A stretch of 64,000 nt of DNA, taken from the NCBI GenBank assembly GCA_002712005.1, contig PASP01000020.1, forward strand, positions 62,001-126,000. The letters run 5' to 3'. Below are positions 54,312 through 60,645 of this stretch, piece after piece (the first letter of the stretch is position 1; every line of letters starts with the position of its first letter). Both the position numbers and the translations under genes were made by a program. This stretch comes from Halobacteriovoraceae bacterium. Lineage in GTDB: Bacteria > Bdellovibrionota > Bacteriovoracia > Bacteriovoracales > Bacteriovoracaceae. Below the pieces are notes generated by a model. The model saw only the letters and a program-made list of their open reading frames with translations, was not told where the DNA came from and searched no databases.

Positions 54312-54650
54312 CTACATTTTTGTTGTACCGTGAAAGATAACCCCTTCTTCCACAATTAGACTAGGCGTAGTTATTGTTCCTTCAAATCTAGCAGGCTTGA
54401 TAATTTCTACTCTACTACTGGCTTTAATATTGCCCTTAACAGTTCCACTAATAAGGATAACGTTTGCATTTATATCGGCATTAACCACAGCGCCTTCAGA
54501 AACAATAACTGTATCATTTGAAAATACGGAGCCGTTAACCACACCTGCGATTCTTGCGACTCCGTTAAAACTTAAATTTCCTTCGAATTTACAGCCCTCT
54601 TCAATGATGGCAGAAATTTCACCTTTTTGTCTCACTGCGACAATCTCCAT
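54312..54650 (-). CDS. Bactofilin-family cytoskeletal protein
   Basis: A 112-aa bactofilin. The polymerising core is a right-handed beta-helix, seen as repeated short Gly/Val/Ile strands: IIEEGCKFEGNLSFNGVARI, GVVNGSVFSND, VIVSEGAVVNADI, VILISGTVKGNI, and EGTITTPSLIVEEG. Short N- and C-terminal tails flank it. Bactofilins form non-dynamic filaments, and in Myxococcus they bind the ParA/ParB-parS system. Its position right after parB supports a role in chromosome placement here. The gap to parB holds a 16-bp dyad described below. Confidence 0.92.
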   Translation of the reverse strand: MEIVAVRQKGEISAIIEEGCKFEGNLSFNGVARIAGVVNGSVFSNDTVIVSEGAVVNADINANVILISGTVKGNIKASSRVEIIKPARFEGTITTPSLIVEEGVIFHGTTKM

Positions 54651-54657
54651 GGATTAG

Positions 54658-54673
54658 TGGTCCCATAGGACCA
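54658..54673 (+). repeat. Solitary 16-bp dyad identical to the mnmE array unit
   Basis: TGGTCCCATAGGACCA, an inverted repeat with 6-bp arms around CATA. It is the same sequence as the perfect copies in the mnmE array at 59356-59584. It lies in the 28-bp gap between the parB stop and the bactofilin start, in non-coding DNA, so protein coding cannot explain it. Confidence 0.85.
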
Positions 54674-54678
54674 CTTTA

Positions 54679-55596
54679 TTATCTTTTTAAAAGATATTCG
54701 TAGATATCATTAAATTCAGCTTCGTTAGTAAACTTTATCACAAATTCACCTTTTCCAGCTTTTTTTGATTTTATATCAAAATGATATCCCGTTTTTTGTT
54801 CCAATTTATCTTTAAACTGGTTTAGTTTTTCATTAAAGAATTTATTTTGCTTTTCTTTAGGCTCAGTAATTTTCTTCTTAAGGAGTTTTTCAACTTCTCT
54901 AATAGAAAGTTTTTCTGCGATTGCTTGGTTAGCTACTCTAATACATTTTTCTCTGTCTTTTTCTCCAGCCAAAACCTTTGCATGTCCAAAGCTTAATTCT
55001 TCTTTTTGTAATAATTCAATTACTGGTCTAGGAAGCTTTAAAATTCTTAAAAAGTTTGCAATCGTTGATCTTTCTTTACCTAATCTTTTTGCAACTTCTT
55101 CTTGTGTTAGATCATATTCATTCATAAGTTGGTAGTAAGCTAATGCTTCTTCTACACAATTTAAATCTGATCTTTGAACGTTTTCAATAATGGCAATGAC
55201 CATCTTTTCACGTTCAGTTATTTTCTTTATAACAGCTGGAACCTTTTCTAAGCCAGCCATTTTAGCTGCTCTTAACCTTCTTTCACCGGCTACAAGTTCA
55301 AAGCCTTTTTCAGCTTTAACAACTACTAAGGGTTGAATAATACCATTTTCTTTAATTGAATCAGATAATTCACTTAAATCTTTTTCTTTAAAAATTTTAC
55401 GTGGTTGATTTGGATTTGCTTTAATTTCATTGATATCAATTAAAGCTGGACCCGCTTCTATACTTACTTCTTTCTTTTCTTTATTTACTTCTTTTTTCTC
55501 AGCTTCTTTATCTGCTAGTGACGCTTTCAAGATTTCATTAGGAGAATCTTGAATGAGTGAAGCTATACCTTTACCAAGTGCTAGTTTCTTTGCCAT
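54679..55596 (-). CDS. parB: Chromosome-partitioning protein ParB
   Basis: Binds parS, uses CTP to slide and spread, and loads SMC. The N-terminal 'KGIASLI' region interacts with ParA. The ParB/CTP domain has NPNQPRK near residue 65, ENGIIQPL and the CTP-binding GERRLRAAKMAGL near 117. The HTH (LTQEEVAKRLGKERSTIANFLRIL) lies near 160-185 and a C-terminal dimerisation region at the end. The 305-aa length is normal. It is 12 bp after parA. The two perfect parS sites are 0.9 and 3.4 kb upstream. Confidence 0.96.
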   Translation of the reverse strand: MAKKLALGKGIASLIQDSPNEILKASLADKEAEKKEVNKEKKEVSIEAGPALIDINEIKANPNQPRKIFKEKDLSELSDSIKENGIIQPLVVVKAEKGFELVAGERRLRAAKMAGLEKVPAVIKKITEREKMVIAIIENVQRSDLNCVEEALAYYQLMNEYDLTQEEVAKRLGKERSTIANFLRILKLPRPVIELLQKEELSFGHAKVLAGEKDREKCIRVANQAIAEKLSIREVEKLLKKKITEPKEKQNKFFNEKLNQFKDKLEQKTGYHFDIKSKKAGKGEFVIKFTNEAEFNDIYEYLLKR

Positions 55597-55608
55597 GACC
55601 TTTTACTC

Positions 55609-56478
55609 CTATTGAATCGTTGGTTGATTATCGCTTCCTTTATTACCCTTATATTCTTCAGGTATTTCAGGAATCGTAAAATCAAGCTCAGGTTGATCTT
55701 TAGGGGCCATAACTCTATCTTTCATTATTAATTCTTTTGCTAGTGCAAGATAGGCCTTACTTCCTTTCGACTCAATATCATAAAGTATTATTGGCTTACC
55801 GAATGAAGGACTTTCAGATATTTTTACATTTCTAGGTATAATCGTTTCAAAAACCTTGTCACCAAAGTGAGTTTGAACTTCATTGGCAACTTGCTTATGT
55901 AAAGATGTTCTTGAATCAAACATAGTAAGAAGAATTCCTTCTAAATCTAAGTTTGGATTGAGTGATGATCTTACTAATCTAATGGTATTCAATAATTGTG
56001 CTAAACCTTCCATCGCATAGTATTCTGTTTGCAATGGAACAATCACACTATCACAAGCTGTAAGAGCATTTACGGCCAATACATTCAATGACGGTAAACA
56101 ATCGATAATAACGTAGTCATAATCTCTTTTTATAGTATCGATAGCTGCTTTTAGCTTATGTTCCCTAGCGAACTCACTAACTAGCTCAATTTCTGCACCA
56201 ATAAGATCTTGGTCTGCAGGACAAACGTCAAAATTAGGTAACTCTGTCGGATATATACAGTCTTTAAGTGTCTCTTTACCAATAATTGCATGGTAAATAT
56301 TCTTCTCTCCAAATTCTTCTTTATCCAGGCCAACACCAACACTAGCGTTACCCTGCGGATCAAGATCAATTAGTAGAGTTTTTTTCTCAGCTACTGCTAG
56401 ACACGCCGCAAGATTAATTGCTGTAGTAGTCTTGCCAACGCCGCCTTTTTGATTAGCAACTGCAATAATTTTAGACAT
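55609..56478 (-). CDS. parA: Chromosome-partitioning ATPase ParA/Soj
   Basis: A deviant-Walker-A ATPase that moves ParB-parS complexes. The motif NQKGGVGKTTTAINLA is at residues 9-24, DLDPQGNAS near 40, the switch IIDCLPSLNVL near 125, and the ISESPSFGKPIILYD region near 225. The 289-aa length is slightly above the usual ~260 because of a polar C-terminal tail (MAPKDQPELDFTIPEI...). It is downstream of rsmG by 37 bp and in an operon with parB. Confidence 0.96.
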   Translation of the reverse strand: MSKIIAVANQKGGVGKTTTAINLAACLAVAEKKTLLIDLDPQGNASVGVGLDKEEFGEKNIYHAIIGKETLKDCIYPTELPNFDVCPADQDLIGAEIELVSEFAREHKLKAAIDTIKRDYDYVIIDCLPSLNVLAVNALTACDSVIVPLQTEYYAMEGLAQLLNTIRLVRSSLNPNLDLEGILLTMFDSRTSLHKQVANEVQTHFGDKVFETIIPRNVKISESPSFGKPIILYDIESKGSKAYLALAKELIMKDRVMAPKDQPELDFTIPEIPEEYKGNKGSDNQPTIQ

Positions 56479-56515: not shown

Positions 56516-57151
56516 TTAATGAAGTTCTGATAGTTTGACAAGATTTTTCTTTGTTCCACGTGGAACATTTTGTGCTTCATACGCAACAAAATGCCGTATA
56601 TGACCACTAGGGAGCTTATATTCAGATAATAAAACTTTCTTAAAAATTCCAACTTTTTCTGGACTTGTCTCAAGCTCTAAAAGGTTTGGTCCTTTATAGA
56701 AATAGACCTTAACTTTGCTGCCGGCCTGGACATTTACCTTATTGAGAAACTCTTTAATCTTCCCTACTGCCTTAAACGTAATCACGCAATCCTGATCAAT
56801 TAATACTGTCTCTATTCTATTATGAAAGGTTTTTACCTTTGATAATCCTAGCTTTAAGGCTATGGCCTCTACAGCTTCAGCTTTCTTTCTTCTAGCTTCG
56901 AATCCAATTGAATCAATGCCAGGTACAGATGCAGCAATTGGCAATAGTGGAAATCCTCCACCAAACCCAACATCTACATGTAGACCTGTTGTTTCTATTT
57001 CGTTTTTGAAGCTTTCATATATTTCTAACGGATATATAGAATCTACGATTTGTTTTTCGTAAAACTCATCGGGCTCTGAGATTCTAGTTAGGTTCAATGT
57101 GGCGTATTCACCAAAGAGTAAATTTCTGTATTGTTCTGAAAATTCTTTCAT
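56516..57151 (-). CDS. rsmG: 16S rRNA (guanine-527-N7)-methyltransferase RsmG/GidB
   Basis: Methylates G527 of 16S rRNA. The SAM-binding motif HVDVGFGGGFPLLPIA near residue 60 replaces the usual DVGSGAGFPG, and the DSIGFEARRKKAEAV motif follows. The 211-aa length is normal. Its last residues (Asn-Val-Pro-Arg-Gly-Thr) are encoded over a perfect parS palindrome at 56552-56567, so the C-terminal tail sequence is constrained by DNA function. It starts at the base shared with the mnmG stop. Confidence 0.93.
   Translation of the reverse strand: MKEFSEQYRNLLFGEYATLNLTRISEPDEFYEKQIVDSIYPLEIYESFKNEIETTGLHVDVGFGGGFPLLPIAASVPGIDSIGFEARRKKAEAVEAIALKLGLSKVKTFHNRIETVLIDQDCVITFKAVGKIKEFLNKVNVQAGSKVKVYFYKGPNLLELETSPEKVGIFKKVLLSEYKLPSGHIRHFVAYEAQNVPRGTKKNLVKLSELH
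56552..56567. other. parS centromere site 1
   Basis: TGTTCCACGTGGAACA is a perfect 16-bp palindrome of the parS family (TGTTnCACGTGnAACA) in the last codons of rsmG, 75 bp upstream of the parA start. ParB from the adjacent gene is the expected ligand. Confidence 0.92.
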
Positions 57152-59016: not shown

Positions 59017-59032
59017 TGTTCCACGTGGAACA
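59017..59032. other. parS centromere site 2
   Basis: A second perfect TGTTCCACGTGGAACA palindrome, in the 84-bp gap between mnmE and mnmG, 13 bp before the mnmG start. It is 324 bp from the array of 16-bp dyads within mnmE. Confidence 0.92.
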
Positions 59033-59088: not shown

Positions 59089-60645
59089 CTACTTTCCTAT
59101 ACAGAAATTGGAAAAAATATTATCAAGAACATCATCAGGGCTCGTTATGCCTACTAACTCGTCAATATAAATCCCTAAACTATTGATTTCATGGGAAATA
59201 ATCGCGATATCCTGATTATTAAATATATATTGTTTAACATGTGTAAATCTATTGTAAATATCTGTAATCACTTCTCTATGTCGTGAAATAGGAATAGGAT
59301 TAAGGCTCGACTTAGACCTGTAAGTATTTGAAATTAATGTATTTAAGGATAATACTGGTCCCATAGGACCAGTTGATTTCAACGAATCTGCCCCCATAGG
59401 ACCAAGTTCATTGTAGAATTCTGCCCCCATAGGACCAGGTGAAAACAAAAGTGGTCCCATAGGACCAAATTTGAAAGAAGTATCTGGTCCCATAGGACCA
59501 AAAGAATCCCCTGCCCCCATAGGACCATTTTTATTATAAAGTGGTTCTATAGGACCAATCTTAGAATCTGCCCCCATAGGACCAGAAATAAAAATCGGTT
59601 GTTCAAGAGATGATAACCTAGATTTCAAACTTAAAAGTTCTGTATCGTTTAATAAATCAACATGAGTAAGAATATATGCAGAAGGCGTGATAGAAGGCAG
59701 TTCACCCTTCCAGGTTTTGATATTAATTAGATAGAAACGTAGAAAACATTGTTCTATTAAACGTTTACCACGAGAAATCCCCTCTTGTTCAATAGTGTCA
59801 CTACTAACACGCAGACCTGCAGTATCAATTAATTGATAAGCTTGGGAATCAATATAAATATACTCAGATACGAAATCTCTTGTGGTCCCATGAATATCAG
59901 AAACAATGGCGCGATCCTGACCCACTATTTGATTAAAGAGAGTACTTTTTCCTGCATTTGTTTCTCCATAGAGGCCAATTTTAGGAGAAAGAAGACTATT
60001 AATATCGCCTTGAGATCTTTTGAATAAATTATTAATAATTTTATCAATATGATGAGTTTGAGAAGTTATTAATTTCGAAATCTCTTCCTCTCCAACATCT
60101 TCACTGAAATCTATAGCTAACTCAATAGATGAGCGTAATGAAATATAACTGTCTCTGAGAGCTGTATATTCCTCAAATAGCTCATTATTCATAATTTTAG
60201 TGGCCTGACTTAAACCGAAAGAACTAGAAGCATTTAAGAGTAAATCAAGACCCTCAACTTGCGTAAGATTCATTTTTTTATTTCTTAAGGCCCTATAAGT
60301 AAATTCACCAGGAAAGGCCTTCTTAAATCCATATTGAGAAATAAGAAGAGAAATAATTCGTTCTAAATTAAACGGATTTCCATGCACCTGAAATTCGATT
60401 ACATTTTCGCCAGTAAAACTATGGGGCGCTTTAAAGAAAAGCAATACACCATCATCTAAAACATTTTCAGAGTCTTTTATAGAAACATAATGAGCATATC
60501 GGGGTTTTACTTCGGATAAACCACATAAGGGTTTTAAAAAGGAAAGATCTTTGAAGCCAGTAATTCTGATGATCCCAATTGCAGCCTGAGATTGAGTGCT
60601 TGTACTTACAGCTACAATAGGGTCATCACGAAAATACTGATTCAT
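59089..60645 (-). CDS. mnmE: tRNA modification GTPase MnmE with GPMG-repeat insertion
   Basis: GTPase partner of MnmG. The N-terminal folate-binding domain is intact (residues 1-~115). The helical domain follows, and the G domain has G1 GETNAGKS (227-234), G2 GTTRD (253-257) and G3 DTAG (274-277). The C-terminal CIGK (515-518), carrying the catalytic-site Cys, is present. Two features are odd. The G4 NKxD reads Thr327-His-Val-Asp330. From residue 355 to 430, where G5 and its flank should be, there are eight GPMG[A/P]-type repeats that raise the length to 518 aa from the usual ~455. These are encoded by an array of 16-bp dyads. It starts 3 bp after yidC. Confidence 0.95.
   Translation of the reverse strand: MNQYFRDDPIVAVSTSTQSQAAIGIIRITGFKDLSFLKPLCGLSEVKPRYAHYVSIKDSENVLDDGVLLFFKAPHSFTGENVIEFQVHGNPFNLERIISLLISQYGFKKAFPGEFTYRALRNKKMNLTQVEGLDLLLNASSSFGLSQATKIMNNELFEEYTALRDSYISLRSSIELAIDFSEDVGEEEISKLITSQTHHIDKIINNLFKRSQGDINSLLSPKIGLYGETNAGKSTLFNQIVGQDRAIVSDIHGTTRDFVSEYIYIDSQAYQLIDTAGLRVSSDTIEQEGISRGKRLIEQCFLRFYLINIKTWKGELPSITPSAYILTHVDLLNDTELLSLKSRLSSLEQPIFISGPMGADSKIGPIEPLYNKNGPMGAGDSFGPMGPDTSFKFGPMGPLLFSPGPMGAEFYNELGPMGADSLKSTGPMGPVLSLNTLISNTYRSKSSLNPIPISRHREVITDIYNRFTHVKQYIFNNQDIAIISHEINSLGIYIDELVGITSPDDVLDNIFSNFCIGK
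59356..59584 (+). repeat. Array of eight phased 16-bp dyads inside mnmE
   Basis: Units start at 59356, 59389, 59422, 59452, 59485, 59512, 59542 and 59569. All are in the same orientation, with periods of 27, 30 or 33 bp (about three helical turns, always a multiple of 3). Three are perfect TGGTCCCATAGGACCA and four are TGCCCCCATAGGACCA. One (59542) is TGGTTCTATAGGACCA. Spacers of 11-17 bp are unrelated to each other. The array translates to Gly-Pro-Met-Gly repeats on the minus strand (Gly-Pro-Ile-Glu for the 59542 unit). Confidence 0.95.

Follow-up and report, generated by a model that had tools for sequence, protein, structure and literature searches.

The parABS operons of plasmids and second replicons are autoregulated, and short palindromes are known from several other settings, such as the ram motifs bound by RacA, which are concentrated near oriC, and the RPE of Rickettsia, which are palindromic elements placed in frame inside protein-coding genes. 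In the chromosomal ParABS systems the centromere, parS, is a 16-bp palindrome with a TGnTYC outline, found in several copies near oriC and less than about 15 kb from parAB. Noc, an orphan ParB-family paralog, has its own parS-like 16-bp palindrome (NBS), distinct from parS and scattered round the chromosome (PMC4331003).

The window analysed here is a 64,000-nucleotide stretch from a Halobacteriovoraceae bacterium (GTDB family Bacteriovoracaceae), and it contains repeated copies of a 16-bp palindrome with the consensus TGGTYCTATAGRACCA, in which a half-site reads TGGTYC or, provided that the other half is TGGTYC, TGCCCC. The element resembles parS in length, outline, copy number and closeness to both oriC and parAB, but differs from it at position 3, in the central four bases and at the mirror position; moreover it stands beside parS and does not replace it, its candidate genes are some 350 kb away and its arrays lie inside mnmE. 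Unlike NBS it is confined to the origin, its sequence is not that of the ram motifs and, in contrast to the RPE, it is not dispersed but keeps a fixed place in the genome across some 47 genera. In the open-access literature we found no description of this element or of a second ParAB in Bacteriovoracaceae; subscription literature was mostly outside the scope of the search, which is hence no proof of absence. The features of the locus are collected in Table 1.

Table 1. Palindromic element, parS sites and neighbouring genes in the window
Feature	Positions	Strand	Remarks
bactofilin gene	54312..54650	-	PF04519, E 9e-27
parB-bactofilin gap	54651-54678		28 bp, holds one element copy
element copy in gap	54658..54673	. 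(match on +)	TGGTCCCATAGGACCA; sequence search
parB (ParB1)	54679..55596	-	canonical ParB_N and HTH_ParB domains
parA (ParA1)	55609..56478	-	named by homology and position
canonical parS	56552..56567	.	TGTTCCACGTGGAACA; rsmG 3' end
canonical parS	59017..59032	.	TGTTCCACGTGGAACA; mnmE-mnmG gap
mnmE	59089..60645	-	array within in-frame variable loop, between G4-like motif and C-terminal helical part
element copy 1, mnmE array	59356..59371	.	exact TGGTCCCATAGGACCA
element copy 2, mnmE array	59389..59404	.	heterotypic, TGCCCC half, TGCCCCCATAGGACCA
element copy 3, mnmE array	59422..59437	.	heterotypic, TGCCCC half, TGCCCCCATAGGACCA
element copy 4, mnmE array	59452..59467	.	exact TGGTCCCATAGGACCA
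element copy 5, mnmE array	59485..59500	.	exact TGGTCCCATAGGACCA
element copy 6, mnmE array	59512..59527	.	heterotypic, TGCCCCCATAGGACCA
element copy 7, mnmE array	59542..59557	.	TGGTTCTATAGGACCA
element copy 8, mnmE array	59569..59584	.	heterotypic, TGCCCCCATAGGACCA

The initial annotation had noticed an exact, non-coding recurrence of the 16-mer between parB and the bactofilin gene, and both points are borne out, the copy lying on the forward strand between the two ORFs. It had also called this copy the same dyad as those of the mnmE array, which holds for the element and not for its letters, as just four of the nine copies read TGGTCCCATAGGACCA (the one in the gap and those starting at 59356, 59452 and 59485); of the eight array sites three are exact, one is TGGTTCTATAGGACCA and four carry a TGCCCC half. 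Chance had been dismissed as the source of the identity, correctly so: about 0.002 occurrences of any one 16-mer would be expected in the 3.96 Mb of this genome (20 contigs), and TGGTCCCATAGGACCA occurs four times within a span of less than 4.9 kb. With oriC placed by the cluster of DnaA boxes in the dnaA-dnaN gap, all exact copies are found 5-10 kb from it, the gap copy at about 10.3 kb and the mnmE array at about 5.4 kb. A possible far copy (C4:169601) lies within a 1375-aa ORF and was judged to be due to chance. We regard it as confirmed that the DNA element is real and that the 16-mer of the parB-bactofilin gap is a non-coding copy of it close to the origin.

Judged from sequence comparison, the site is conserved throughout the family and almost exclusively at the origin. 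The consensus is present in 116 of the 129 Bacteriovoracaceae genomes versus one of 240 other genomes of the phylum, and the reversed pattern, used as control, in none of the 369. Across 12 near-complete genomes (about 44 Mb), 60 copies with at most one mismatch were counted, every one of them no more than about 12 kb from mnmE (reversed control, 0); of the heterotypic copies, 26 out of 28 fall within about 16 kb. When the halves TGGTYC, CGGTYC and TGCCYC were counted in 80 fetched origin loci and the window, 499 sites were obtained across 81 loci (mean 6.2), every locus having at least one. TGCCCC makes up 14% of the halves and pairs with itself once (four times if TGCCTC is counted); since such halves almost never self-pair, one TGGTYC-type half seems to be required per site. 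Moreover, in an unbiased scan of the 80 origin loci for perfect 16-bp palindromes, the widely recurrent ones were parS (45 loci) and TGGTYCTATAGRACCA (CC form in 24 loci, TT form in 22), the third in rank being a parS-like variant, TGTTCCATATGGAACA, in three loci. An operator of the CsoR-like or GntR-like kind was also considered as a reading of the C-rich or TGGT halves.

A coding repeat (a collagen-like GPxGP peptide), an RNA hairpin or an inert dispersed palindrome might be thought to account for such an element, as arrays of this kind encode GPIGP/GPIEP repeats (GPMGP/GPMGA/GPIEP in the window), the palindrome could fold in mRNA and an unrelated viral contig has, coincidentally, the same 16-mer in a collagen-like frame. 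Explanations of this class are nevertheless already contradicted, and we give them almost no credence. In one genome (G045) the MnmE protein is of normal length and the array is intergenic, following the stop codon with a spacing of 27/29/27/29 bp; because this array is non-coding after a normal MnmE, it is the DNA rather than the peptide that is selected, and this array and the other non-coding copies rule out a peptide-level repeat. A hairpin is ruled out by the mixed sites, whose sense strand has the C-A mismatch (TGGTCC..GAACCA) in 148 cases and allows U-G pairing (TGGTTC..GGACCA) in 43, counted over the array at 59356-59584 and the 80 related origin loci, the opposite of what a hairpin needs, and by the lack of any Rfam family matching the element. 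An inert dispersed repeat is ruled out as well, no scatter being seen through the bacterium's own genome or the 12 near-complete genomes. The orientation bias of mixed sites is also present in intergenic copies (18 versus 4). Two matches to viral arrays were obtained, of which one is not a site and the other, on contig L200 (1949-2221), consists of two exact TGGTCCTATAGGACCA palindromes in a collagen-like GPIGP repeat frame and was judged coincidental.

The initial annotation had tied the element to the ParAB-bactofilin segregation locus. What stands of this is an origin-proximal element linked to chromosome segregation; it does not appear to be the site of the adjacent ParAB, which has parS sites of its own, both in places conserved in most Bacteriovoracaceae loci. 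Identity of the element with canonical parS (TGTTYCACGTGRAACA) is ruled out, the two sharing 10 of 16 positions and the outline TGnTYC....GRAnCA. It is improbable that the element is a second class of parS recognised by ParB1, although the ParB1 gene is adjacent, the element partly resembles parS and most ParB1 of the family have K184, which has been described as allowing a broader specificity in ParB and Noc (PMC7383237). True parS is maintained as a separate sequence class, and ParB1 keeps R173 and G201, which are reported to be conserved in parS-binding ParBs (PMC7383237); besides, the ParB1 of one genome (G020) has N184 yet coexists with a full array, and half-sites found at a distant promoter (see below) would be left unexplained. 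In three loci (L055, L069 and L073, from G031, G025 and G068) parS is two mismatches off the canonical sequence, and these may or may not be the three that have TGTTCCATATGGAACA; divergent parS and TGTTCCATATGGAACA suggest a shift in ParB1 specificity.

The MnmE variable loop holds 329 of the sites and the parB-bactofilin gap 51, the remaining ones being distributed over yidC, the N-terminal part of mnmE, parB, other gaps and a cluster past the atp genes. The adjacency to bactofilin is probably incidental, because a gap copy is found in 32 of 67 loci compared with mnmE copies in 74 of 81. MnmE is longer where there are more sites (r = 0.83). The cluster past the atp genes is the third recurrent one, at about 15.8-17.8 kb in oriented coordinates (e.g. 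L038, L049, L071, L075), and occurs in many genomes that have no parB-bactofilin copy. At L163:16149-16916 a look at the sequence found an atpB-like gene, on the opposite side of oriC from the atp genes of the window. By eye, no recognisable SAK (G5) motif follows the G4-like motif of Bacteriovoracaceae MnmE, even where there is no array (59089-60645; L058, L086, L097), and the MnmE GTPase of this family may work differently.

In the 46 loci with two parS, the intervals between the pair add up to 112.8 kb and contain 2 sites, against 233 in the preceding 4 kb and 43 in the following 4 kb; the element brackets the parS pair and is nearly excluded from the interval. This arrangement would suit another DNA-binding protein that limits or gates the spreading of ParB1 around parS, as a boundary or centromere-silencing factor, and that also controls a second operon, parA2-parB2. 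We take this as the main rival explanation because in attack-phase Bdellovibrio bacteriovorus short parS-flanking regions block ParB accumulation through a Bdellovibrio-specific factor, itself not identified (PMC10547168). It is nonetheless unlikely in our opinion: the element is absent from other families of the same phylum, the interval between the parS sites holds mnmG, which encodes a conserved enzyme and may just be intolerant of insertions, and ParB2 is already a fitting candidate at the origin sites as well as at the promoter of its operon.

ParB-domain proteins of three recurring kinds are found in Bacteriovoracaceae. ParB3 (the C6 paralog) is disfavoured as a binder: two element-bearing genomes (G027 and G080) give no above-threshold match, and one genome from a different family has a similar protein but not the element. 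ParB2, which we infer to be the protein that binds the element, is present in 119 of the 129 Bacteriovoracaceae genomes, in single copy in all but one, and in none of the 240 others. The family genomes with no ParB2 match are mostly incomplete; the 99% complete G032 was discarded as a counter-example, its parA2 being truncated at a contig edge. Since element and ParB2 are both ancestral to one family, their family-restricted co-occurrence counts as about one event.

The parB2 gene comes immediately after parA2 in the same orientation. It sits on the chromosome among recurring neighbour genes and is 324-392 kb from parB1 in the five genomes that have both on one contig. Its product has predicted ParB_N (the N-terminal CTPase domain) and HTH_ParB domains and no ParB_C match; its closest solved chain is Noc, from which it differs in being encoded together with a ParA. 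Plasmid and phage relatives of ParB2 have about 35% identity or less, among the matches listed. The recognition helix (SKSEVHRSLLIAK) is unlike those of ParB and Noc, so the specificity of ParB2 is not readable by analogy.

Multiple palindromic sites clustered at the origin, and a candidate cognate ParB wherever these occur, are what characterises a ParABS-type centromere, and both are found here. Such a centromere would also be near its own parAB. Around parAB2 no full site was found in 196 kb (12 Bacteriovoracaceae genomes) and an unbiased palindrome search gave no recurrent palindrome proper to that locus; only half-sites are present, at the parA2 promoter.

These half-sites (TAGGACCA or TAGGGGCA, on either strand) are enriched there: 34 of 92 genomes, from 11 of 45 genera, have them in the 200 bp preceding parA2, and none does with the reversed control. 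The genus tally is the only account taken of kinship, here and in the permutations. Column permutations (n=1993) gave a mean of 1.2 loci, and the two that exceeded 34 corresponded to the promoter's own -35 sequence. The same scan on twelve origin-region genes found 0-3 loci for each of eleven and 8 for rnpA, and over the reversed control there was no enrichment in the parA2 coding sequence, in the parA2-parB2 gap or in origin loci outside full sites. The half-sites upstream of rnpA (8 of 72 origin loci) are isolated, and this is the only other origin-region gene with a mild excess. In one genus the two half-site variants interchange at the same position of the parA2 promoter, and the inverted repeat that they make up there, immediately 5' of TTTGACA, exceeds the origin site in width by 10 bp. 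The strict half-site is absent from 58 of the 92 promoters, among them those of the genus to which the window belongs. An operon promoter preceded by likely binding half-sites, together with a separate centromere array, is reminiscent of plasmid and second-replicon parABS; in contrast to these, parA2-parB2 has no replicon of its own and its candidate centromere is on the main origin.

Taking the distribution of sites, ParB2 and half-sites together, we consider it likely that the element is the centromere of a second ParABS-type system, bound by ParB2 from the distant parA2-parB2 operon. Against this count the unusual distance of about 350 kb between the presumed centromere and its own parAB genes and the orientation bias of the mixed sites, for which it gives no account; a protein other than ParB2 could also be what binds at the origin and at the parA2 promoter. 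According to the preferred reading, in which ParB2 is the binder, the palindrome would mark the origin region as a DNA site to which a protein binds, and ParB2, encoded with ParA2 about 320-390 kb from parAB1, would load at the mnmE and post-parB clusters. There it may clamp or spread with CTP, and ParA2 may move or anchor the resulting complex alongside the classical ParAB1-parS. In many lineages ParB2 (or ParA2) would control the expression of its own operon through the half-sites upstream of parA2. With slightly less assurance, but still as the account we favour, we are inclined to suggest that the whole family Bacteriovoracaceae has two independent ParABS-type systems on one origin, parS with ParAB1 and a second centromere that brackets parS, consists largely of an expandable in-frame array inside mnmE and is served in trans by ParA2-ParB2.

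If this is true, two ParA/ParB machines with distinct sites handle one origin, and a further natural specificity would be added to the ParB/Noc family. The mnmE array would, moreover, clearly exemplify the evolution of a DNA centromere array inside sequence that codes for an enzyme. The named records of the family include Bacteriovorax, relatives of the predatory Bdellovibrio, and the element and ParB2 would then provide a concrete pair of site and protein for the question, left by the work on Bdellovibrio, of what anchors or silences the origin from one growth phase to the next.
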